DNA of 64,000 bases, taken from NCBI GenBank assembly GCA_021770655.1, contig JAETQO010000028.1, positions 1 through 64,000 on the forward strand, in the 5' to 3' direction. The notes under the pieces are model-generated. The model was not told where the DNA came from. It saw only the letters and a list, made by a program, of their open reading frames with translations, and made no database searches. Numbering within the stretch: the first letter of the stretch is position 1; every line of letters starts with the position of its first letter. Both the position numbers and the translations under genes were made by a program. This document shows positions 9,574 through 46,592 of this stretch, piece by piece. Origin of the DNA: Ruminococcus sp. (GTDB taxonomy: Bacteria > Bacillota > Clostridia > Oscillospirales > Ruminococcaceae).

Positions 9574-9747
9574 GGTAACACCGCACAACTACCGCCTAAC
9601 GGCTTTGTGCACGTCTAACTTGCCAATTTTCCGTTATCTTGCACAGAAACTTCTTGAAAGACACAAGTATTCCTGCATCGTTTCTATACAATACTAACGA
9701 AAAATTTTCTGCGTTATCCGCACACAATAGTTGTGCGGTGTTGCCTT
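9574..9747 (+). repeat. Repeat family A, copy A2 (full length)
   Basis: Full 174-bp copy beginning GGTAACACCGCACAACTACC and ending TAGTTGTGCGGTGTTGCCTT. The two ends are inverted repeats of each other. It lies in the gap between convergent genes. Confidence 0.9.
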
Positions 9748-14715: not shown

Positions 14716-14894
14716 TTAAGGTAACACCGCACAACTATTGTGTGCGGATAACGCAGAAAATTTTCCGTTAGATTGTATAGAAACGACGCAGGAATACTTG
14801 TGTCTTTCAAGGAGTTTCTGTGCAGGATAACGGGAAATTGGCAAGTTAGACGTACACAAAGCCGTTAGGCGGTAGTTGTGCGGTGCTGCCTTAA
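14716..14894 (-). repeat. Repeat family A, copy A3 (full length, reverse orientation)
   Basis: Complete copy bounded by TTAAGGTAACACCGCACAAC and its inverted counterpart GTTGTGCGGTGCTGCCTTAA. It fills most of the gap between gdhA and the zinc-ribbon gene. The remaining 100 bp up to that gene shows no clear promoter. Confidence 0.9.
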
Positions 14895-19757: not shown

Positions 19758-19931
19758 AAGGCAGCACCGCACAACTACCGCCTAACGGCTTTGTGTACGT
19801 CTAACTTGCCAATTTTCCGTTATCCTGCACAGAAACTCCTTGAAAGACACAAGTATTCCTGCATCGTTTCTATACAATCTAACGAAAAATTTTCTGTGTT
19901 ATCCGCACACAATAGTTGTGCGGTGTTACCT
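19758..19931 (+). repeat. Repeat family A, copy A4 (full length)
   Basis: Complete copy starting AAGGCAGCACCGCACAACTA and ending TAGTTGTGCGGTGTTACCT, directly adjacent to the decayed B3 element and just upstream of the XRE regulator promoter. Confidence 0.9.
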
Positions 19932-19977
19932 AAAAACAAGCTCTGTCTGTGAAAATTGATTTTTTATCTGTAAGCGT

Positions 19978-35521: not shown

Positions 35522-35550
35522 TTGACTTTTATGCGCCTGCATGATATACT
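35522..35550 (+). promoter_or_regulatory. Sigma-A promoter ahead of the MBOAT operon
   Basis: TTGACT and TATACT are spaced by 17 bp. A transcript would begin near 35557 and meet a terminator hairpin about 40 nt later. Confidence 0.72.
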
Positions 35551-35588
35551 GAATGTGTCGGATTAGGGCTGAACTTGCCTTAATTGAC

Positions 35589-35613
35589 CCCGCCTTGAAA
35601 CGGCGGGCTTTTT
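35589..35613 (+). terminator. Leader terminator between promoter and MBOAT gene
   Basis: CCCGCC-N7-GGCGGG is followed by CTTTTTG. It lies 75 bp upstream of the first gene, so it is either an attenuator or the end of a small RNA of about 55 nt. Confidence 0.65.
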
Positions 35614-35695
35614 GCACTATGTGATTTGCTGTTGTCATCTTATGTCGTGCTGTATTATCGGTTTGTTATAGATTTTCTTTGTTAGGAGCTTGAAC

Positions 35696-37117
35696 GTGGT
35701 TTTTGCTGATTTGTTTTTTCTGTATTTCTTTTTGCCGGTGTGCCTGATATGCTATTTTATCACCCGTAGGACAGTGGTAAGAAACGCCGTGCTGATAGTG
35801 TTTTCATTGATATTCTATGCATGGGGCGAGCCGGTCTGGATAAGCATTTTACTGCTTTCCTCGCTGGTGAATTATATTGTCGGACGGGTCATAGGAAAAT
35901 ATCCCGAAAGCGGCAGGGCAAAAGCCGCGCTGATAGGTTCGCTTATCTTTGATCTGGGCGTGCTGTTCGGCTTTAAGTATACTGCGTTTTTTGTGGAAAA
36001 TCTCAACGGACTTTTTAAACTGGACATACCCGTACCGAATATAGTTCTCCCCATAGGTATTTCTTTCTATACCTTTCAGACTATTTCCTATGTCGTGGAC
36101 TGCTATTGGGGTAAGGTAAAAGCACAGAAAAGCTATGCAAAATTTCTTATGTACGTTTCAATGTTCCCACAGCTTGTGGCAGGGCCTATCGTAAGATATT
36201 CCGTTATCGAAAATGAGATAGACAATCGCCGCACCACTGTAAAGGACCTCTCCGAGGGATTTTCCAGAATAATAATCGGCCTCGGAAAAAAGGTCATAAT
36301 CGCCAATAATCTCAGCACTGTCGTTACCGCTCTGCTCGGTTCTGCCGAAAACGGCTATGAAAATATTTCCGGCTTGTCGGTGGCAGGAACTTGGTACGGC
36401 GCAGTGCTTGTGGGACTTTGGTATTATTTTGACTTCTCAGGATATTCCGATATAGCTATCGGTCTGGGCAGGATATTCGGTTTTCACTTTGACGAAAACT
36501 TCAAATATCCTTTTATCTGCAAAAGCATTTCCGAGTTCTGGCAGAGGTGGCATATATCACTCAGTACCTTTTTCAGAGATTATGTGCTTTATCTTCCCTT
36601 GTTCGGAAAAAGAAGAAAATACGGCGGACTTTTTCTTGTGTGGTTCTGTACGGGACTTTGGCATGGAGCAAGCTGGAATTTTATTTTCTGGGGACTTTAT
36701 TACGGAATGTTTATCTTTATGGAAATGAAGATAGGCAAAAAGCGCATGAAAAAAATGCCTGCCGCACTGGCTCATGTCTATACAAAGCTTGTTATTTTCG
36801 TGGGATTCGGTATCTTTTATTTTGAAAATCTCGGTGCACTGGGAAAATTCTTCAAAGCCCTTGTGGGCGCAAACGGCAACAGCCTTACGGACCCGGTAAC
36901 CGCCAATCTGTTTATGAATAATATCTGGCTTTTTATTGCCGCAGTAATTCTTATTCTGCCGATCGTTCCTAAGATAAAGGAAACGGCGGTCAAATCAAAA
37001 GGTTCTGCATATGCCGTTCAGACTGCCGGTATTGTCTGCAATGCCGCGATCCTGCTTTTAAGCAGTGTGCTTCTTGTGAACACTACCAACAATCCGTTTT
37101 TGTATTTCAGATTTTAA
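35696..37117 (+). CDS. MBOAT-family membrane O-acyltransferase (AlgI/DltB/PatA-like)
   Basis: A 473-residue polytopic membrane protein with about eleven hydrophobic segments that moves an acyl group across or at the membrane onto an extracytoplasmic polymer. Catalytic motifs: RWHISLSTFFRDY with the conserved His near residue 285 and LWHGASWNFIFWG with the invariant His near 322. The start is GTG at 35696 (MVFADLFFLYFFLPV, the classic MBOAT opening), seven bases after AGGAG; a TTG two codons earlier abuts the ribosome site. It is the first gene of an operon with a DHHW partner, an FkbH-type enzyme and an acyl carrier protein. The presence of the last two suggests the donor is a carrier-bound acyl group and not acetyl-CoA. 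Confidence 0.93.
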   Translation: MVFADLFFLYFFLPVCLICYFITRRTVVRNAVLIVFSLIFYAWGEPVWISILLLSSLVNYIVGRVIGKYPESGRAKAALIGSLIFDLGVLFGFKYTAFFVENLNGLFKLDIPVPNIVLPIGISFYTFQTISYVVDCYWGKVKAQKSYAKFLMYVSMFPQLVAGPIVRYSVIENEIDNRRTTVKDLSEGFSRIIIGLGKKVIIANNLSTVVTALLGSAENGYENISGLSVAGTWYGAVLVGLWYYFDFSGYSDIAIGLGRIFGFHFDENFKYPFICKSISEFWQRWHISLSTFFRDYVLYLPLFGKRRKYGGLFLVWFCTGLWHGASWNFIFWGLYYGMFIFMEMKIGKKRMKKMPAALAHVYTKLVIFVGFGIFYFENLGALGKFFKALVGANGNSLTDPVTANLFMNNIWLFIAAVILILPIVPKIKETAVKSKGSAYAVQTAGIVCNAAILLLSSVLLVNTTNNPFLYFRF

Positions 37118-37151
37118 GCCGTTATATGTCGGCGCAAGCAGGTGAAATAAA

Positions 37152-39281
37152 ATGTCAACCAATAAAAATAAGAATAAAGACAGGGATTTTGACAGGAATC
37201 TTCCAAGCTTTGATATTGAGTCTCTTTCAAGGGCGTATACCGAGTCGCTTGATAAAGTGACCTTCGGCGGAAAAAAGCTGTCCGAAACGGAGAACGCCGA
37301 AAAACCGTCCTCACCGCACGATGAAATAGTTGAAAAGATCAGGGAGAAAAATCGTGCTCTGAGCAGTAGCATATGGACGGACGAGCCTGTTCTGAAACCA
37401 AAAAAAAGCGTGTGGCTTGAAGATGATTACGATGTTCCCACGGAGGAAAAAACGCCCGCTGAAAAACAGGAAATAACCGAAGAAACTACGGCGGAAAAAG
37501 GACCCGAGGAAGTTGTTATCCCTTTTACTATGGAGAAGAATCGTCTTGACGGAGCAAAGCGGGAGATAACCGTGGAGGTCGCTCCCGACGGAAGCGTCAA
37601 GAAAAAAGAGCCTAAGAAAAGCTTTACTTTGAAAATACCCGAAAGCTATTACAGGGAATACGATGTGGCAAGAACCGAAAAGCCTGCGGGTATTTCGGGA
37701 CGAAAAATCGAGATAATCGACAAGCGAAAGCCTTTGCCGCAAAAGGACGACCCTACCGTGGAAGAACCGGAAACCAAGACTGTTACAGACGAGGTGAAAA
37801 AAATCGGGGAGCAGAGCTCTGCCGATGACAGCTCAGACCTTGAGAACTACGAAAAAACAGCGGCAATGGTTAAGAAAAGAAAAGCCGAAAGGGAAGAACG
37901 GAAAAAGAACAATATCCATGAGCTGGAATTTAGCGTTATAAATATTGCCGTGTGTGCGGCAATCTTTTTCGTTGCGTTTGCGGCGCTGATATTTATGCAA
38001 AGGGAAAGCGGTTTTATCCAGTCGGAAAACCGAGATCTCAGCGAGTTTCCCGAATTTTCGGTATCCTCCTTCTTTTCAGGAGAATTTACAGGGGGCGTGA
38101 CCGATTATTTTACAGATACCGTGCCTAACAGAGAGTCGCTGAAAAAGTTCTGCGCCGGATTTACGAACTGTCTGGGAGTTAAGCTTAACGATACGGTCAT
38201 ATCCGGCGGATTGAAAAATGTAGAAAAGGAAACTCTCGATCAGGAAAAAATCGCAAAGACCACTACGGTAACAGCGTTTACCGGAAAGCCTACAGAAAAA
38301 ACAGGAACCGAAACGAAAAAAACGACTGCTCAAAAGAAAACCACCGAAAGCGAAAAGATCGTGGACGTTCCCGAAAATCTTGACGACGGTCAATGGGAGG
38401 GCGACGTTATCGTAAGCGGCAAGGGTAAAGATGTCCGTGCCGTGGGCGCATATTACGGAACCTTTGAAAACGGCGATAAATATGCCGAAACTATCAACAA
38501 ATGGAAAGCGGAGCTGGGCGACGGCGTAAACGTATATAATATGTGTATCCCCACGTCGGCGGCGTACTATATGCCGGAAAATCTGAGGGACTCCGTTTCC
38601 GACCAGAAAGACAATATCGACAATATTGCCGCAGGTCTTGAGGGTATAATAAATACCGATGTTTTCGACGCAATAGGCGAGCATAAGGACGAGTACATAT
38701 ATTCAAGGACCGATCACCATTGGCAGCCTTTGGGAGCTTACTATGCGGCGCAGGTGTTCGCAGGGCAGGCGGGAGTAGATTTTCCTGCGCTCGATACCTA
38801 TGAAAAGTGCGAGATAGAGGATTTTGTGGGTACAATGTACGCCTACAGCAATTATAACAGCGATATTCAGAATAATCCCGATACCTTTATATATTATAAG
38901 CCGGACAATGACTATACCGTAAAATATTACGATACGAAGTTTGAAAATCCAGTGGAGTCGGGGCTGTTCTTTGACTATGCCGAGGGAATAAACTGTTATT
39001 CGGCGATACTGAACGTTGACAATGAAATTGCGGAGATAGAGACCGACTGCGATAACGGCAGGGTTCTTGTAGTGTTCAAGGACAGCTTCGGAAACGCTCT
39101 GATACCTTTCCTTACACACGGCTTTTCTAAGATTTATGTGTGCGATTTCAGATATTTTGACATAAACGCTATAGATTTTTGCAGGGAGGTCGGCTGTACC
39201 GATCTGCTGTTCGGAATTTCCATAACCTCCTGCTCAACTCCGACCAAGACAGACTGCCTGAATAATATCAGAATACAGTAG
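37152..39281 (+). CDS. DHHW-family protein with long charged cytoplasmic domain
   Basis: A 709-residue bitopic membrane protein. Residues 1-258 are charged, low-complexity and predicted cytoplasmic; one membrane segment follows (about 261-283, NIAVCAAIFFVAFAALIF); the rest is extracytoplasmic. The SGNH-like DHHW domain has the motif RTDHHWQPLGAYY near residue 520 and a FKDSFGNALIP block near 640, as in AlgJ/AlgX-type partners of MBOAT acyltransferases. It likely accepts the acyl group or completes its transfer to the surface polymer. The extra 258-residue N-terminal region is unusual for the family, as DHHW proteins normally start near the membrane helix; it contains a Thr/Lys-rich linker after the helix too. 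It is 34 nt after the MBOAT gene, with AGGTGA before the ATG. Confidence 0.88.
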   Translation: MSTNKNKNKDRDFDRNLPSFDIESLSRAYTESLDKVTFGGKKLSETENAEKPSSPHDEIVEKIREKNRALSSSIWTDEPVLKPKKSVWLEDDYDVPTEEKTPAEKQEITEETTAEKGPEEVVIPFTMEKNRLDGAKREITVEVAPDGSVKKKEPKKSFTLKIPESYYREYDVARTEKPAGISGRKIEIIDKRKPLPQKDDPTVEEPETKTVTDEVKKIGEQSSADDSSDLENYEKTAAMVKKRKAEREERKKNNIHELEFSVINIAVCAAIFFVAFAALIFMQRESGFIQSENRDLSEFPEFSVSSFFSGEFTGGVTDYFTDTVPNRESLKKFCAGFTNCLGVKLNDTVISGGLKNVEKETLDQEKIAKTTTVTAFTGKPTEKTGTETKKTTAQKKTTESEKIVDVPENLDDGQWEGDVIVSGKGKDVRAVGAYYGTFENGDKYAETINKWKAELGDGVNVYNMCIPTSAAYYMPENLRDSVSDQKDNIDNIAAGLEGIINTDVFDAIGEHKDEYIYSRTDHHWQPLGAYYAAQVFAGQAGVDFPALDTYEKCEIEDFVGTMYAYSNYNSDIQNNPDTFIYYKPDNDYTVKYYDTKFENPVESGLFFDYAEGINCYSAILNVDNEIAEIETDCDNGRVLVVFKDSFGNALIPFLTHGFSKIYVCDFRYFDINAIDFCREVGCTDLLFGISITSCSTPTKTDCLNNIRIQ

Positions 39282-39301
39282 TGAAAAGCAGGTGCATTAA
39301 A

Positions 39302-41092
39302 ATGAAAGAGCTTTCATATCCCTTTGATAACGGATATATAATGAAAAAGAAAAAGGCACTGAAAAGGCGGCTTCTGGAGGAGGATACCGAGCGTATAAAA
39401 AAGAAGATCGCCGTGCTGGGCGGTTCGACTACTGACGATATAGTTTCGGTAATGGAGCTGTTTCTGCTGGACATGGGTTTTGAGTGCGAATTTTATCAGT
39501 CTGAGTATAATCGTTACTGGCAGGACGCGGTGTTCGGGAATGAGGAGCTTGACAGCTTTGCGCCCGATGTGGTGTATATCCATACAAGCGTCAGAAATCT
39601 TAGCTTCAGACCCTCTCCGAAAAGTTCGGTGGAGGAGATCGAAAATGCGCTTGACGGCGAGATCGATAAGCTTGAGCAGGCTTGGAACTCGCTGAGAGAG
39701 AAGTTCCATTGCCCTATAATCCAGAATAATTTTGAGTATCCGTATTTCAGGCTTATGGGAAATATGGACGCATGGGACAGAAGAGGTACGGTCAATTTTG
39801 TAACAAGGCTCAACACCCGCCTTTACGATAAGGCGGAAAAGCGGCAGGATCTTTACATAAACGATATTAACTGGCTGTCCTCCGCTTACGGTCTGGAGAA
39901 ATGGAGCGCTCCCGAGTATTGGTACCTTTATAAATACTCGCTGAATACCGACGCTATACCCGAGCTTTCCTATCAGGCGGCGTCGATCGTCAAGGCTCTT
40001 TTCGGAAAAAATAAAAAAGCTTTCGCTCTCGACCTTGACAATACTCTTTGGGGCGGGATAGTCGGCGACGACGGTGCGGAAAATCTTGAAATCGGACAGG
40101 AAACCGCCGAGGGCATGGCTTACTATGAGTTCCAGCAGTATGTAAAGGCTCATAAAAATCTGGGTATCCTGCTTACCGTTTGTTCTAAAAACGAGGAGGA
40201 AAACGCTCTTGCAGGACTTTCACACCCCGAGGGTGCGCTGAGACCGGAGGATTTCACGGCGGTAAAGGCAAACTGGCTTCCAAAGGACAAGAATATTGCG
40301 GATATTGCGTCGGAGCTTAATATTCTTACCGAGTCTATCGTGTTTGCCGACGATAACCCTGCGGAGCGTGAGATAGTAAGGGAGCAGCTTAAATATACGG
40401 CTGTGCCGGAGATCGGTGAAGTGACCGACTATATCAGGATACTTGACCGCTCTGAGTTTTTTGAAACCGTATCGCTTTCCGAGGACGATCTCAAACGAAA
40501 TGAAATGTACAGAGCCAACGCCGAGCGAGCAAAGCAAAAGGCTCGCTTTGAAAATTATGTGGACTATCTGAAAAGCCTTGATATGACAGCGGAGATAGGC
40601 GACTTTACTCCGATGTATCTGCAAAGGATAACTCAGCTTACGAACAAAAGCAATCAGTTCAATCTTACCACGAAGAGATATACCGTCGAACAAATGGAAG
40701 AGGTCTGCCGCTCAGACAGATATATCAGGCTGTACGGACGTCTTAAAGACAAGTTCGGAGATAACGGCGTAGTATCGGTGGTCGTGGGAGAGATAAAGAA
40801 GGTTGGACTTCATATCGACCTGTGGCTGATGTCCTGCAGAGTGCTGAAAAGGGATATGGAGCTTGCGATGCTGGACAGTCTTGTAAAAGCCTGCCGTGAA
40901 AGAGGTATTTCCGAGATATTCGGGTATTATTATCCTACTGCGAAAAACAAAATGGTAGCGGGGCTTTACGAAAGCTTCGGTTTTGAAAAGCTTTCTGCGG
41001 ACGAAAAGGGAAATACCGTTTGGCGTTTGAATACGGAGAATTATGTGAATAAAAATAATGTAATAAATATTATTCCGACAGGAGGAAAATGA
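39302..41092 (+). CDS. FkbH-like HAD enzyme (glyceryl-ACP synthase type)
   Basis: A 596-residue cytoplasmic enzyme. An N-terminal SGNH-like region (about 30-235) precedes the HAD domain, with ALDLDNTLWGG near residue 244, TVCSKNEEEN near 294 (the Cys is the thioester carrier in characterised FkbH proteins) and FADDNPAEREIV near 350. A C-terminal GNAT-like region ends the protein (about 440-590). Characterised members dephosphorylate 1,3-bisphosphoglycerate and load D-glyceryl onto an acyl carrier protein. The carrier gene starts two bases after this stop, which fits. The ATG at 39302 lies after AGGTG; the GTG at 39281 overlaps the DHHW stop and is not preferred. A partial copy of the last 107 bp of this gene exists at 44055-44161. 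Confidence 0.9.
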   Translation: MKELSYPFDNGYIMKKKKALKRRLLEEDTERIKKKIAVLGGSTTDDIVSVMELFLLDMGFECEFYQSEYNRYWQDAVFGNEELDSFAPDVVYIHTSVRNLSFRPSPKSSVEEIENALDGEIDKLEQAWNSLREKFHCPIIQNNFEYPYFRLMGNMDAWDRRGTVNFVTRLNTRLYDKAEKRQDLYINDINWLSSAYGLEKWSAPEYWYLYKYSLNTDAIPELSYQAASIVKALFGKNKKAFALDLDNTLWGGIVGDDGAENLEIGQETAEGMAYYEFQQYVKAHKNLGILLTVCSKNEEENALAGLSHPEGALRPEDFTAVKANWLPKDKNIADIASELNILTESIVFADDNPAEREIVREQLKYTAVPEIGEVTDYIRILDRSEFFETVSLSEDDLKRNEMYRANAERAKQKARFENYVDYLKSLDMTAEIGDFTPMYLQRITQLTNKSNQFNLTTKRYTVEQMEEVCRSDRYIRLYGRLKDKFGDNGVVSVVVGEIKKVGLHIDLWLMSCRVLKRDMELAMLDSLVKACRERGISEIFGYYYPTAKNKMVAGLYESFGFEKLSADEKGNTVWRLNTENYVNKNNVINIIPTGGK

Positions 41093-41093
41093 A

Positions 41094-41336
41094 ATGACGG
41101 ACAAACAGATAATCGACAGACTCAACGAGGTTTTCAGAGATGTTTTTGACGACAGCTCGCTTGAGGTTACAGCAAAGACTACCGCCGACGATATCGAGGA
41201 TTGGGATTCTATCGAGCATATCACGCTTATCGGAGCGGTGGAGGACGAGTTCGGTATGCGCTTTAAAATGGGCGAGGTTTCCGGCATGAAAAACGTCGGC
41301 GAAATGATAGATATAATCAGACAGCGAGGTAAATAG
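41094..41336 (+). CDS. Acyl carrier protein
   Basis: An 80-residue four-helix carrier with the phosphopantetheine attachment Ser in DWDSIEHITLI near residue 38. Acidic, as usual. The ATG follows AGGAGG, two bases after the fkbH stop. It is not the fatty-acid AcpP type (which has DSLD), but matches carriers next to FkbH enzymes and the DltC-like group. Expected role: hold the glyceryl or related acyl group made by the FkbH protein and present it to the MBOAT protein. Confidence 0.92.
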   Translation: MTDKQIIDRLNEVFRDVFDDSSLEVTAKTTADDIEDWDSIEHITLIGAVEDEFGMRFKMGEVSGMKNVGEMIDIIRQRGK

Positions 41337-41356: not shown

Positions 41357-41529
41357 AGGCAACACCGCACAACTACCGCCTAACGGCTTTGTGCACGTCT
41401 AACTTTCCAATTTTCCGTTATCTTGCACGGAAATTCCTTGAAAAACACAAGTATTCCTGCGTCGTTTCTATACAATCTAACGAAAAATTTTCTGCGTTAT
41501 CCGCACACAATAGTTGTGCGGTGTTACCT
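41357..41529 (+). repeat. Repeat family A, copy A5 (full length)
   Basis: Complete copy from AGGCAACACCGCACAACTA to GTTGTGCGGTGTTACCT, between acp and the first surface-protein gene. The paralogous upstream region at 44.2 kb lacks it at the same point, reading ATATATAGGAAAATG, which gives an empty-site comparison. Confidence 0.9.
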
Positions 41530-41597
41530 ATACATAAAAAGGAAAATGATTATATAATTTACACAAATGTGAATTACAAGATATTTTATTTTTTGTA

Positions 41598-41698: not shown

Positions 41699-43819
41699 AT
41701 GAAGAGTAAGTCAATCAGAAAGTCGCTGGCTTCTGTCACGGCTTTAGCAATAGCCTTCGGCTCTTTTGCCTTAACGGCTTCTTCGCTTGAAAGCTATGAC
41801 GGCTATACTTCGACTGATCCGCTGCTTGCAGCAACAAGATTCCATATGTTCGCACAGGAAAAATATTCCGGCACTGCGCATACTCACGGAAATATTGCCG
41901 CTAAGGTAGCAAACACCGGCGAATTCGGTACAAGAAATAATTTCTGGATCGATGCGGGATATGAAGAAAATCCTGAGATAACCTATATCAGGGACATCGA
42001 GGGCAACGGTTTCAGTTCGTCTTCACAGGGCGGAACTCTGGTTCTGGGAAGGAACTGGACGGTAAAGACCATTAACGACGGTGCGGAAACCTTTATCCAG
42101 ATGACTTCGCCGCATGAAAAGACTTTCAAAATAGACAACAATAAGTTCGATAAGATACTTATTGAGGGTACAAACGTCAATGATCCGTATATCGACCTTG
42201 ACGCTGAGTTCGCAAAGCTGAGAAAGCTTTCGTCGGATTGGTCTGTAGCGAACGAAACGAAAAATGTCGAGATCAATACATCTGATAGAAATAATCTTTA
42301 TATGGATTTTTCAAATGTTGATACGACAAAGGGTTATACATATGTAAATCTTGACGCTTCCGATCCTGATTGTATTCTTAACATTGATACCAAGCTTACT
42401 ATCAAGGGCGTTGACACAAATCCGGCAAATAACGGTATTGTAGTTATCAATATCGATGTTGCAGGTATAGAGGCTGGTGAAAACGGCGAAAAGACCTATA
42501 TAAACAAAAATCAGAGCATTACGGTAGAGGGCTGTACAGGAAACAGAGAGGTCGGACCCGAGGAATACGGTACTTCAAGAATAGTATTCAACTTCTTCGA
42601 CAGCTCACAGTCCGACAGAAACTTCAGCGGTACTGTCGGTTTGCAGAATCAGGTAGAAGGTTCTCTGCTTGCTCCTTCCGCCGATGTTAAGATAGGTGCG
42701 ATAAACGGAACGGTTATCGGAAAGAACATTGATCATTCAGGTGACGAGTCCCATAGAAGAGATATTGTTGCAATGGGCGTAACAGGCGATATTAATCTTG
42801 ATCCCGACAGTTCGGAAACAGACAGCAGTTCTTCTAAGGTGGACAGTTCGTCATCGACAGCGGACAGCAGTGATTCCACAGCGGATACATCGTCTGAGGC
42901 AAGCAGTTCGGATTCCGTAGTGGATACATCATCTGAGGCAAGCAGTTCGGATTCCGTAGCAGATACATCGTCCGAGACAAGCAGTTCGGATTCCGTAGCG
43001 GATACATCGTCCGAGGCAAGCAGTTCGGATTCTGTAGCGGATACATCGTCTGAGGCAAGCAGTTCGGATTCCGTAGCGGATACATCGTCTGAGGCAAGCA
43101 GTTCGGATTCCGTAGCGGATACATCATCCGAGGCCAGCAGTTCGGATTCCGTAGCAGATACATCGTCTGAGGCAAGCAGTTCGGATTCCGTAGCGGATAC
43201 ATCATCCGAGGCCAGCAGTTCGGATTCCGTAGCGGATACATCGTCTGAGGCAAGCAGTTCGGATTCCGTAGCGGATACATCGTCTGAGGCAAGCAGTTCG
43301 GATTCCGTAGCAGATACATCGTCTGAGGCAAGCAGTTCGGATTCCGTAGCGGATACATCGTCTGAGGCAAGCAGTTCGGATTCCGTAGCGGATACATCGT
43401 CTGAGGCCAGCAGTTCGGATTCCGTAGCGGATACATCATCCGAGGCAAGCAGTTCGGATTCCGTAGCGGATACATCGTCTGAGGCCAGCAGTTCGGATTC
43501 TGTAGCTGATACATCATCCGATGTAGACAGCGATACAAGTTCAGATATAAGCGGACAGGATTCCAACAGCAACAGCGAGGGCGTAAACGGTGCAGATAAG
43601 GACAAAGAATCAAGCGGTTCACAGACTTCCGGTACAGATTCATCGTCAAGTTCCAAAGCGACAGGTACAGATGCGGACAATGCCAACAAGAACAAGAATT
43701 CTGCGGCAGACAATTCCGCTAAATCCAAGAACCCTAACACAGGTGCAGGCGTTTCGGTTGCAGTTCTTTCTCTTGCGGCGGCTGTGGTCGTAACCATGGG
43801 TAAGAAAAAGCAGAAATAA
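41699..43819 (+). CDS. Cell-wall anchored surface protein with 13-residue Ser/Asp repeats
   Basis: A 706-residue exported protein. A signal peptide (SIRKSLASVTALAIAFGSF) ends near residue 28; residues about 35-360 form a choice-of-anchor A-type domain (start FHMFAQEKYSG, end VEGSLLAPSADVKIGAINGTVIGK). Then come sixteen tandem copies of a 13-residue unit of the form ADTSSEASSSDSV, encoded by exact 39-bp repeats (42881-43504), acting as a stalk, and a C-terminal sorting signal: NPNTG, a hydrophobic stretch and a KKKQK tail. A sortase should link it to peptidoglycan. Ligand unknown. It is paralogous to the next gene through promoter, signal peptide and overall plan, but the stalks differ entirely. 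Confidence 0.88.
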   Translation: MKSKSIRKSLASVTALAIAFGSFALTASSLESYDGYTSTDPLLAATRFHMFAQEKYSGTAHTHGNIAAKVANTGEFGTRNNFWIDAGYEENPEITYIRDIEGNGFSSSSQGGTLVLGRNWTVKTINDGAETFIQMTSPHEKTFKIDNNKFDKILIEGTNVNDPYIDLDAEFAKLRKLSSDWSVANETKNVEINTSDRNNLYMDFSNVDTTKGYTYVNLDASDPDCILNIDTKLTIKGVDTNPANNGIVVINIDVAGIEAGENGEKTYINKNQSITVEGCTGNREVGPEEYGTSRIVFNFFDSSQSDRNFSGTVGLQNQVEGSLLAPSADVKIGAINGTVIGKNIDHSGDESHRRDIVAMGVTGDINLDPDSSETDSSSSKVDSSSSTADSSDSTADTSSEASSSDSVVDTSSEASSSDSVADTSSETSSSDSVADTSSEASSSDSVADTSSEASSSDSVADTSSEASSSDSVADTSSEASSSDSVADTSSEASSSDSVADTSSEASSSDSVADTSSEASSSDSVADTSSEASSSDSVADTSSEASSSDSVADTSSEASSSDSVADTSSEASSSDSVADTSSEASSSDSVADTSSEASSSDSVADTSSDVDSDTSSDISGQDSNSNSEGVNGADKDKESSGSQTSGTDSSSSSKATGTDADNANKNKNSAADNSAKSKNPNTGAGVSVAVLSLAAAVVVTMGKKKQK
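42881..43504 (+). repeat. Sixteen 39-bp tandem repeats
   Basis: Each unit encodes a 13-residue Ser/Asp/Glu/Ala repeat. Units differ only by silent or near-silent changes (for example TCGTCTGAG against TCATCCGAG), so copies are homogenised. Copy number probably varies between strains. Confidence 0.92.
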
Positions 43820-43941: not shown

Positions 43942-44054
43942 TTAAGGTAACACCGCACAACTATTGTGTGCGGATAACGCAGAAAATTTTTCGTTAGATT
44001 GTATAGAAACGACGCAGGAATACTTGTGTCTTTCAAGGAGTTTCTGTGCAAGAT
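43942..44054 (-). repeat. Repeat family A, truncated copy A6
   Basis: Reverse-oriented copy that begins TTAAGGTAACACCGCACAAC and stops at CTGTGCAAGATA, after which sequence copied from the fkbH 3' end begins. The other third of the element is missing at this junction. Confidence 0.85.
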
Positions 44055-44161
44055 AGAAAAGCTTTCTGCGGACTAAAAGGGAAATACCGTTTGGCGTTTG
44101 AATACGGAGGATTATGCGAATAAAAACAATGTAATAAATATTATTCCGATAGGAGGAAAAT
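44055..44161 (+). pseudogene. Duplicated fragment of the fkbH 3' end
   Basis: About 107 bp match positions 40987-41092 with few differences (GAAAAGCTTTCTGCGGAC... to the GGAGGAAAAT ribosome site of acp). One change turns GACGAAAAG into GACTAAAAG, so the frame has a stop. The acp gene that should follow is absent. It is not expressed as protein; it marks the segment duplication that produced the second surface gene. Confidence 0.85.
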
Positions 44162-44348: not shown

Positions 44349-46592
44349 ATGAGGAGTAAGTCAATCAGAAAGTCGCTGGCTTCTGTCACGGCTTTGGCAA
44401 TAGCCTTCGGCTCTTTTGCCGCAACGGCTGCTGAAGCGCTTGAACCGCCAATAGAAGGCGCTTTATTGATCGGTGCTGATGGAAGCTTGTCAAAAGAAGA
44501 GCTTCTTGGTTATACTGATGCTGATGCAGCATCTATGCTGCTTGGATCATCAAGCTATTTTAACGTATTTCTTGAGGGCGATTTCAAGCCGACAGGCTCA
44601 GACTGCGAGGGCAGACTTGCAGTCGGCGGAAGTATCATTAATTACTCAGAATATAAAAATTATATGATAGGCTGTGCTCTTACAGGTTATAAGATCGCAG
44701 AAAAAGAAGGGAAATACGCAGAATTTATAGTAGGAGGAGATTATCTTAGCGGTGTTTCTTTTGTTCACGGCGCCAGACCCGCAGAGTCAACACCAAACGG
44801 AGAATTACCTAATTTTTGGTATTTCAGACCGAGAAATATTGTTGTTTCAAGCGATACCAGTATCAGAACAGGTGAAAGCAACGGCGGACTTTCGGACAAA
44901 GCTGCTGAGGCAAGGGAGTTTGCAGATACCTATAATGACAAAGAAATACGTACAAATGTTTATTACTATGACGCAAATGAACCAATAATCGATTTTAAGA
45001 AAGAATTTGACAACATCAGGGGAAACAGTAAAAAATGGGCTGGATATGACAGCGTAAAGGCTGAGTTTGACACCAACACAAGTAAGCTTGTTATGACGGC
45101 GACTCAAAACGACGTCAAGGAAAAAGCAAGCAACGGTTATGGTTATGTTTTTTTTGATGTAGAACCTGAATGGATGAATAATGCAAAATCAATATATGTA
45201 ACTGTTCCTGAGGATTGCTATGTTGTAATGAATGTTAGCGGTAAAGACGTTGATACATATACGCTGTCAACCTCGGGTAATGCTTCTTACAACAATGGTG
45301 CTGCAAAGCCTGATTTCTTTTTCAACGACAAGCAGATTGGCGATAATTATCTTCAGTTTGAAAATAATATAGACGAGGCGACTCTGTTGCTGACAAATTT
45401 TTATGAGGCTGAAACGCTCACTATCAGCAACAATTTTCTCGGTTCGATACTTGCACCAAATGCGGATGTTGACGGAGGCTGGGGACACGTTTCCGGTTCA
45501 TTGATTGCTAAGTCGTTTTATGGACCGACTGAATTTGGCTTTAAGACCTTTGCCGGCAGACGCATAAAGGAGTCTGACCCGATAACGTCCGAATCGACAA
45601 CGACGACAACAACTACTGAGCCGACAACGACGACAACAACTACTGAGCCGACAACGACAACAACTACTACTGAGCCGACAACGACAACAACAACCACTAA
45701 GCCGACAACTACAACAACTACTACTGAGCCGACAACTACAACAACAACTACTAAGCCGACAACGACAACAACTACTACTAAGCCGACAACGACAACAACT
45801 ACTACTAAGCCGACAACGACAACAACTACCACTGAGCCGACAACTACAACAACTACTACTGAGCCGACAACGACTACGACAACTACAACAACGACTACAC
45901 CGAAAGTTACATCAGCCGGCCCTACCACGACAACATCTTCAGCGGTAAGTTCGGAAACCACAACGACAACGACTAAGCCGACCACAACAACGACTACAAC
46001 TTCGGTAACAACTACTACACCGGAAGTTACATCGGCCGGTCCTACCACGACAACAACTACGGCAGTAAGCGATGAAACCACTACGACAACAACTACGGCA
46101 GTAAGCGATGAATCCACTACGACAACAACCACGGCAATGAGCGATGAAACCACTACGACAACAACCACGGCAGTAAGCGATGAAACTACCACGACAACAA
46201 CTACGGCAGTAAGCGATGAAACTACTACGACAACAACCACGGCAGTAAGTGATGAAACTACTACTACAGAGGAGACTAACATATCCGGTAATCAGACCAA
46301 AGATCCGAGCGGTGACGTAAAGGGCGACAGCAAGACTGAAACTACTACTACCGCTTCCGGCTCCGATAAGTCTGAAACAACGACTACTACAAAGAAATCT
46401 ACCGGAGATTCGGAAAAGTCAAAGACTACTACCACGACTAAGTCTTCTTCAAACGTAGCTTCTGCTTCCAAGAATACAGACGCGGCTTCGGCTTCAAACC
46501 CGAAGACAGGCGCAGGCGCAACTGCTGCGGCAGCCGTTCTTCTTGCGGCGGCAAGTATCATTGCTGTGTCAAAGAAGAAAGATGATAAGTAA
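44349..46592 (+). CDS. Cell-wall anchored surface protein with Thr-rich stalk
   Basis: A 747-residue exported protein. The signal peptide is almost identical to that of the preceding paralogue. Residues about 45-410 form a choice-of-anchor A domain (SSYFNVFLEGDFKPTGSDCE... and LGSILAPNADVDGGWGHVSG). The stalk has ten 9-residue units of Glu/Lys-Pro plus seven Thr, then Thr-rich spacer sequence and six units like AVSDETTTTTTT. The C-terminus carries NPKTG, a hydrophobic stretch and KKKDDK, a sortase signal. Thr/Pro-rich stalks are commonly O-glycosylated in other surface proteins; here that is inference. The anchor domain is only distantly similar to the first paralogue, so the adhesive specificity probably differs. 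Confidence 0.88.
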   Translation: MRSKSIRKSLASVTALAIAFGSFAATAAEALEPPIEGALLIGADGSLSKEELLGYTDADAASMLLGSSSYFNVFLEGDFKPTGSDCEGRLAVGGSIINYSEYKNYMIGCALTGYKIAEKEGKYAEFIVGGDYLSGVSFVHGARPAESTPNGELPNFWYFRPRNIVVSSDTSIRTGESNGGLSDKAAEAREFADTYNDKEIRTNVYYYDANEPIIDFKKEFDNIRGNSKKWAGYDSVKAEFDTNTSKLVMTATQNDVKEKASNGYGYVFFDVEPEWMNNAKSIYVTVPEDCYVVMNVSGKDVDTYTLSTSGNASYNNGAAKPDFFFNDKQIGDNYLQFENNIDEATLLLTNFYEAETLTISNNFLGSILAPNADVDGGWGHVSGSLIAKSFYGPTEFGFKTFAGRRIKESDPITSESTTTTTTTEPTTTTTTTEPTTTTTTTEPTTTTTTTKPTTTTTTTEPTTTTTTTKPTTTTTTTKPTTTTTTTKPTTTTTTTEPTTTTTTTEPTTTTTTTTTTTPKVTSAGPTTTTSSAVSSETTTTTTKPTTTTTTTSVTTTTPEVTSAGPTTTTTTAVSDETTTTTTTAVSDESTTTTTTAMSDETTTTTTTAVSDETTTTTTTAVSDETTTTTTTAVSDETTTTEETNISGNQTKDPSGDVKGDSKTETTTTASGSDKSETTTTTKKSTGDSEKSKTTTTTKSSSNVASASKNTDAASASNPKTGAGATAAAAVLLAAASIIAVSKKKDDK
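45596..46268 (+). repeat. Thr-rich coding tandem repeats
   Basis: A 27-bp unit (Glu/Lys-Pro-Thr7) repeated ten times, then a 36-bp unit repeated six times near the end. ACA, ACG and ACT codons are mixed, so the DNA is less uniform than the encoded protein. Confidence 0.85.

Follow-up and report, generated by a model that had tools for sequence, protein, structure and literature searches.

The window analysed here is a stretch of 64,000 nt from a Ruminococcus sp. contig, and the feature studied in it (35522-41336) is an operon of four genes on the plus strand that encode a membrane-bound O-acyltransferase (MBOAT), a DHHW protein, an FkbH protein and an acyl carrier protein (ACP). This operon is probably a carrier-protein-fed acylation system of the MBOAT-SGNH type, supplied by FkbH and the ACP and transferring most likely a glyceryl group onto a surface polymer. 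The operon combines known parts, and its new element is the FkbH-ACP donor module on an MBOAT-SGNH pair. The first-pass annotation had described the combination as one without a known biochemical description, and among the papers listed by searches of open-licence full texts we likewise found none that links FkbH to an MBOAT in the acylation of a polymer (subscription papers on it may exist). The one listed paper in which FkbH, MBOAT and acyl carrier protein co-occur is an aeruginosin review (PMC10143770).

The tight spacing of the four genes noted in the first-pass annotation is real. Every open reading frame (ORF) is open and intact, and the intergenic gaps are 34, 20 and 1 bp with the start codons that we chose on the basis of Shine-Dalgarno-like sequences (GTG 35696, ATG 37152, ATG 39302 and ATG 41094); longer ORFs exist from TTG 35690 for the MBOAT and from GTG 39281 for FkbH. 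Family scans agree with the gene identities proposed before. The MBOAT (473 aa, 35696..37117) scored 82.8 bits against PF03062 (cut-off 27) and 147.8 bits against the DltB equivalog TIGR04091, below its cut-off of 375. Its two histidines, His286 in RWHISL and His323 in GLWHG, are invariant across 23 aligned sequences, and so are F468, Y470 and F473 of the C-terminal FLYFRF (37097..37114), an acyl-shuttle motif of the FxYxxF type with Tyr470 as its tyrosine. The fold nearest to the predicted model (pLDDT 84) is DltB, followed by PORCN and HHAT, and the nearest solved MBOAT by sequence is also DltB. The DHHW protein (709 aa, 37152..39281), which is SGNH-like, scored 173 bits against PF14286 (cut-off 25) and 29.7 bits against ALGX (cut-off 26.5). 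It consists of an N-terminal stretch of about 260 residues, one transmembrane segment near residue 262 and an extracellular DHHW domain. The nearest solved structures are 4nzk (E 8e-74) and PatB1 (5v8d, E 9e-7), and the TDHHW and KDS motifs align with both of them, giving the Ser-His-Asp set. D521-H-H-W524 (38712..38723) is kept in all 43 long DHHW ORFs of the related loci (L034-L102), and a KDS-type motif around the presumed catalytic Ser645 (KDSFGNA, 39084..39086) in 39 of them.

The FkbH protein (596 aa, 39302..41092) has an N-terminal domain, a HAD domain and a GNAT-like C-terminal domain. It scored 264 bits against TIGR01686 (cut-off 146.65), with FkbH_N and HAD-IIIC matches as well, and it is 75% identical to FkbH of R. 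bicirculans 80/3. Its predicted model has a mean pLDDT of 88; the first ~400 residues match 3slr from Bacteroides fragilis, and GNAT acetyltransferases were matched as well. Motifs of the DLDNTLWGG, CSKN, DDNP and MSCR types are all four kept in 64 of 66 long homologues. The ACP (80 aa, 41094..41336) scored 20.0 bits against PP-binding, just below the cut-off of 20.8, and ACP models also matched below their cut-offs. It carries the phosphopantetheine attachment site Ser39 (41208..41210) in a WDS motif, which is kept in 67 of the 67 relatives found by our ACP model (L034-L102). The nearest solved sequence is 2lml (E 3e-17), Geobacter GmACP3, for which a role in lipopolysaccharide has been proposed.

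A route for the acyl group can be proposed from what has been described for relatives of these proteins. Excerpts of two papers describe FkbH proteins as transferring glyceryl from 1,3-bisphosphoglycerate to carriers (PMC7489565, PMC8949500). FkbH of the operon would thus take an acyl group, likeliest D-glyceryl from 1,3-bisphosphoglycerate, dephosphorylate it and load it as a thioester onto the ACP. Because the operon has no modifying enzyme, unmodified glyceryl-ACP is the likeliest donor for the MBOAT. The acyl-ACP might dock at the cytoplasmic face of the MBOAT, on the specialised loop PLFGKRR that replaces PLGGNR, by analogy with DltB and DltC. The MBOAT would carry the acyl group across the membrane to its own Tyr470, as proposed by analogy with PatA; in excerpts of PMC12148441, the tyrosine of FxYxxF is auto-acetylated in PatA and bears D-Ala in DltX. 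Ser645 of the DHHW protein would take the acyl group over, in the manner of PatB, and esterify hydroxyls of an extracellular polymer, presumably a surface polysaccharide or wall polymer. In one related locus (L081), FkbH lies a few genes ahead of mraW, a gene for a penicillin-binding protein with PASTA domains and a Mur ligase gene, and similar gene clusters recur in other Ruminococcus loci. In another (L126), FkbH adjoins a penicillin-binding protein gene. These neighbours are hints that point to the envelope and name no polymer.

The evidence that the MBOAT is fed by a carrier comes from its donor loop. In excerpts of PMC11035591, helix HC of DltB docks DltC via Met302, Val305, Ile306, Met309, Lys312 and Arg317. 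This docking stretch sits between the two histidine motifs RWHISL and GLWHG, and in the window MBOAT it corresponds to a loop (F292-G310, the FFRDYVLYLPLFGKRRKYGG region, 36569..36625), where a HMMER alignment places P301-L-F-G-K-R306 over Lys312-V-F-K-N-Arg317 of DltB. The orthologue clade has the consensus FFRDY[VL]LYxP[IL]FGKRRxY, with variations. Of the 49 clade rows whose genomes matched FkbH, 48 have a P[IL]FGKR-like loop (38 linked rows, 37 of them distinct, nine unlinked orthologues and L138), and an FGK-like loop was also found in a 55% complete genome with no FkbH match (L139). Another 80 MBOATs were collected from 100 relatives, and one was truncated. The 79 readable ones comprise 68 with P[LM]GG, one with PLDG (L201) and ten with FGK. 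All ten FGK forms are FkbH-linked orthologues (nine from the same assemblies as loci already counted), and P[LM]GG is present in 68 of the 69 unlinked proteins. The loop counts exclude L124, which has no histidine motifs, and L102 and L195, whose loops are unreadable. The DltC-docking loop is therefore altered in step with FkbH-ACP in the sequences compared, which supports a carrier-fed MBOAT, and the loop type together with the linked carrier argues against acyl-CoA as its likely donor.

The same contrast is found inside the genus Ruminococcus, where FkbH matched in 15 of 29 genomes. The FGK-loop MBOAT is present in 13 of these 15 and in none of the 14 genomes without FkbH; of the two other FkbH-matching genomes, one is cut ahead of the MBOAT (G001) and one has a PLGG orthologue (G020). 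Seven of the 14 FkbH-less genomes (L103-L109) have an orthologous MBOAT-DHHW pair with a PLGG loop and 57-68% MBOAT identity, four have a degenerate loop (L110-L113), and in three the best match is an ordinary PLGG paralogue. In L103, identity to the window protein is 79, 53 and 30% at positions 271-300, 301-330 and 331-360, compared with 93, 80 and 43% to the paralogue of its own genome, while every block outside 271-360 is closer to the window protein. L104 has a similar mosaic pattern; L105 and L107 were compared with the paralogue of the window genome. In a tree without this segment, the PLGG paralogues were monophyletic (support 99), and the FkbH-less rows fell with the FkbH clade in two groups. 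When only the segment was used, the FkbH-less rows joined the Ruminococcus paralogues (95) within the PLGG set (99). Topology tests were done on a thinned set (53 of 81 rows) with a segment of 88 columns, and for the rest of the protein a grouping of the FkbH-less rows with the PLGG rows was rejected (approximately unbiased (AU) test, p 0.007). The simplest account of these sequences is that the donor-side segment of the MBOAT was replaced by that of the paralogue in a lineage without FkbH-ACP.

To look beyond the orthologues, the FkbH-linked long-loop MBOAT of L136 was used as a query against 100 genomes, and the 30 best loci were taken. Among them were 22 non-PLGG MBOATs, the query included, and eight PLGG ones. 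By our ACP model, a carrier lies within ~1.5 kb of 14 of the 22 non-PLGG MBOATs and of none of the eight PLGG ones. Larger stretches were fetched for 14 non-PLGG MBOATs (11 from the L136 search and three others), half of which are from genomes with no FkbH match, and the PLGG comparison set comprised six fetched loci and ten others (L103-L109, L114, L123 and L140). With a carrier model trained partly on carriers of the same loci, a carrier gene was found in 11 of the 14 non-PLGG loci and in none of the 16 PLGG loci (Fisher p 2e-6, L327 omitted and kinship uncorrected). L327 is a non-PLGG locus cut by a contig end, and no carrier was counted for it. Independently of that model, Pfam PP-binding matched all four of the carriers that were tested (E 0.0002-0.0015); two of them passed the cut-off and the other two fell slightly short of it. 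One neighbour gene encodes an AMP-binding enzyme. The attachment serine stands in a D-S context in the 11 carriers (N-S in L321), and an AMP-ligase motif was found in nine of the 14 non-PLGG stretches. Because carrier genes accompany 11 of 14 non-PLGG MBOATs and none of the 16 PLGG ones, these sequences indicate that the altered loop is associated with a carrier donor irrespective of the loading enzyme.

The gene neighbourhood, whose conservation the first-pass annotation had proposed to check, is conserved. Scanning named genomes yielded 69 homologous loci. An ACP gene starts within 200 bp after FkbH in 65 of the 69, the DHHW gene lies upstream of FkbH on the same strand in 41, and the full order MBOAT-DHHW-FkbH-ACP occurs in 31 (29 of 50 loci with at least 4.5 kb upstream). 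The counts of 65 and 31 reject chance co-occurrence of the four genes. In L054, L090 (Gemmatimonadota) and L100 (Thiotrichales), FkbH-ACP is followed by the MBOAT, and in L101 (Omnitrophota) and L102 (Gammaproteobacteria) the MBOAT is upstream. In 100 whole genomes, own included, FkbH matched in 35 and was over the cut-off in 33, and by coordinates 19 of these 33 have an MBOAT at the FkbH locus. Three more of the 33 are affected by contig ends: the locus of G001 is cut beyond the DHHW gene, FkbH of G043 is split over contig ends, and the FkbH of G020 is a divergent fragment lying where a contig stops. Of 199 genomes drawn across the phylum, 12 matched FkbH and nine (own included) were over the cut-off.

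The window MBOAT was also used as a query against 18 genomes of the named loci. Nine of these are Ruminococcaceae with an FkbH-ACP that has no adjoining MBOAT (L039, L041, L042, L049, L050, L061, L081, L089 and L096; upstream coverage is only ~4 kb in L039 and L041), and all nine encode elsewhere an orthologous MBOAT that is 60-73% identical and has the same special loop. No such orthologue was found in six Lachnospiraceae and one Pseudobutyrivibrio genome with FkbH, and the closest MBOATs in these seven are 40-45% identical and of the PLGG type. Two candidate partners of FkbH-ACP in such relatives were dropped. ORFs of ~860-1050 aa beside FkbH-ACP (L125, L127, L128 and L132) were considered as membrane partners; they are related to each other, and two have no Pfam match. 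At the matching place in L126, a penicillin-binding protein gene is on the opposite strand, and thus these ORFs are taken as probable antisense readings. The single long-loop MBOATs of G107, G111 and G112 were considered as partners of the orphan Lachnospiraceae FkbH-ACP, and they were dropped because the long-loop MBOATs of G106, G107 and G112 have their own carrier gene (that of G112 also has an AMP ligase).

Of the alternatives to glyceryl transfer, the one that survives best keeps the carrier-fed MBOAT-DHHW route and changes the acyl group: FkbH might make another acyl-ACP, or glyceryl-ACP might be modified by enzymes encoded elsewhere. In three relatives with no adjoining MBOAT (L126, L129 and L132), FkbH-ACP is followed by a MaoC-like dehydratase, L129 also has a short-chain dehydrogenase/reductase, and in L134 a 3-hydroxyacyl dehydrogenase adjoins FkbH. 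Therefore, the products of FkbH-ACP can be processed further. However, no such enzyme is encoded in the operon, where the ACP gene is the last, and the 19 window proteins scanned with Pfam (the other window ORFs being unscanned) have no polyketide synthase (PKS), nonribosomal peptide synthetase (NRPS) or modifying dehydrogenase domain. A modified or different acyl group is thus somewhat unlikely.

In the second alternative, MBOAT and DHHW work together as an ordinary acetyl-CoA O-acetyltransferase, and FkbH-ACP, which merely shares the operon, has another role. The FkbH-less Ruminococcus genomes that keep the MBOAT-DHHW pair alone (L103-L109) would fit it, and so would L263 with its PLGG MBOAT by FkbH-ACP and the frequent separation of FkbH-ACP from any MBOAT. 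In 11 of the 33 genomes over the cut-off, the stretch fetched around FkbH contains no MBOAT, and in the eight other genomes of the phylum-wide draw, eight of nine FkbH-ACP places have no adjoining MBOAT (one, L263, has an MBOAT nearby, and five have none in the stretch). Because so many relatives have FkbH-ACP without an adjoining MBOAT, the module is not exclusive to MBOAT use, and the MBOAT link is typical of the Ruminococcus family and certain neighbours but not of FkbH-ACP pairs in general. Some further observations weigh against the carrier-fed system, and an absolute loop rule was rejected. L263 has a PLGG MBOAT in one cluster with FkbH-ACP and glycosyltransferases, and the lone exception among the 49 clade rows, L114 (G020), has a PLGG loop in a genome with a divergent FkbH fragment on another contig. 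L110-L113 have no FkbH in their genomes, yet their loops are non-PLGG (L111-L113 are also without the first histidine motif), and the stretches fetched for L325 and L326, both non-PLGG, contain no carrier gene. Few evolutionary events underlie the loop contrast, the rows are not independent, and for the 88-column segment the converse grouping was not rejected (AU p 0.32). Against a plain acetyltransferase, the donor loop differs exactly between FkbH-linked and FkbH-less orthologues, and an FGK-loop MBOAT accompanies FkbH even in the nine genomes where the genes lie apart. We therefore consider an acetyl-CoA-fed pair quite unlikely and prefer the carrier-fed system.

The third alternative, that the operon belongs to, or is left over from, a polyketide or NRPS-like pathway where FkbH supplies glyceryl- or hydroxymalonyl-ACP and the MBOAT does tailoring, matches the role of FkbH proteins in the excerpts cited above and the FkbH genes by or in very long ORFs of PKS or NRPS size in three loci of the phylum-wide draw (L260, L265 and L266), but it is very improbable because the 19 scanned window proteins have no PKS or NRPS domain, in line with the first-pass annotation, which saw no polyketide gene nearby, and the four-gene operon with its DHHW gene recurs across many species.

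A broader proposal, to which we would give about an even chance, is that the operon represents a class of MBOAT-SGNH acylation fed by an FkbH-loaded glycolytic acyl phosphate, with the donor preference set by one exchangeable loop that FkbH-less lineages swapped with a paralogue by recombination. If this is true, sequence alone could tell which type of donor is used by many envelope MBOATs of bacteria. If the route proposed for the operon holds, 1,3-bisphosphoglycerate would be turned into an ester on an envelope polymer, and glycolysis would be coupled directly to surface chemistry in rumen and gut Ruminococcaceae. MBOAT-DHHW pairs with and without FkbH-ACP, differing in their donor loops, are a natural experiment on the donor choice of envelope MBOATs.

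Upstream of the operon is a promoter-like site (TTGACT-17-TATACT, 35522..35550, plus strand) with a TG ahead of the second hexamer, and the left end given for the operon in the first-pass annotation, 35522, is its -35 box. Promoter-like sites number 16 in the region and 12.0 ± 3.8 in shuffled sequences, so the match alone is no proof; as judged by eye, promoter-like sequences precede the MBOAT in many relatives. The leader (about 35556-35620, plus strand) has two hairpins at 35557..35613 (z -3.83), of which the second runs into a stretch of T and resembles a terminator. By eye, no conserved counterpart of the hairpins or conserved sequence was seen in relatives, and a known riboswitch was rejected since there was no Rfam match in the leader either. 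The leader might act as an attenuator or give rise to a short RNA. Across the window, a single Rfam match exceeded the gathering score, namely a ribosomal protein L10 leader (RF00557, 28778-28911, minus strand).

The gene upstream of the operon encodes a GH94 phosphorylase, and downstream are two large genes for repetitive proteins (41699-43819 and 44349-46592). Both products are repeat-rich and secreted and have similar N-termini; in the second, an ice-binding-like adhesive domain is combined with an NPXTG anchor. Directly behind the ACP gene is an interspersed repeat of ~170 bp (41360-41540) that resembles a miniature inverted-repeat transposable element. Further copies in the window are at 1089-1252, 9577-9746, 14719-14888 (minus strand) and 19762-19932, and a 111-nt inverted copy (43945-44055) flanks the gene at 41699-43819. 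Near full-length copies that are at least 93% identical number 40 or more in the genome, a lower bound since only 40 of the 159 candidates received a score. The same genome has three MBOAT matches and one FkbH. Its third MBOAT (L124:5993-7405, G000:C16) adjoins a DHHW gene of its own and is without both histidine motifs and FxYxxF, and thus it is perhaps an inactive relative.

Among known systems, the FkbH loaders of polyketide, tetronate and NRPS pathways also combine an FkbH protein over the family cut-off with a stand-alone ACP. The operon differs from them in having no adjoining PKS or dehydrogenases and in its putative acceptor, an MBOAT. Gellan gum is an example of a bacterial polysaccharide that bears glyceryl esters, as stated in excerpts of two papers (PMC4432689, PMC9737242); that polymer is sphingomonad and carries L-glycerate, and no enzyme assignment tying its glycerate to FkbH or an MBOAT was found in the literature searched. 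With PatA/PatB of peptidoglycan O-acetylation, the operon shares an MBOAT with a built-in FxYxxF motif followed by an SGNH partner, and its DHHW domain matches PatB1. AlgI/AlgJ-AlgX is another MBOAT-SGNH pair. Unlike these pairs, the operon includes a carrier and a loader, and its MBOAT has a non-PLGG loop.

The closest parallel in logic is the Dlt pathway. Loci like it were seen in relatives (L317-L323 and L329), with an AMP-ligase motif, a carrier protein and a long-loop MBOAT, and in L289, which is the place also listed as L317, the gene between carrier and MBOAT encodes a PLP-dependent decarboxylase-like protein; amino-acid-like donors other than D-Ala seem possible for these loci. The first-pass annotation had suggested a dlt-like surface modification for the window operon. 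A strict Dlt identity was rejected: DltA (TIGR01734) had four matches in the genome, the best at 80 bits and none over the cut-off of 559.85, and the MBOAT scored low against TIGR04091. FkbH takes the place of the AMP ligase DltA as loader, the shuttle motif belongs to the C-terminus of the MBOAT instead of to DltX (no DltX-like ORF was noted in the operon, and no search aimed at DltX was made), and the partner is a DHHW protein nearer to PatB and AlgX. The carrier-fed logic is what holds of that suggestion, since the loop changes in step with FkbH-ACP and altered-loop MBOATs lie by carriers. Like Dlt, the operon has a dedicated carrier co-encoded with the MBOAT (here the ACP with WDS), an SGNH-type partner, a non-PLGG donor loop and an FxYxxF shuttle motif. 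Thus, the operon falls outside Dlt although it probably operates in a similar way, and by its core it is a member of the MBOAT-SGNH pairs.

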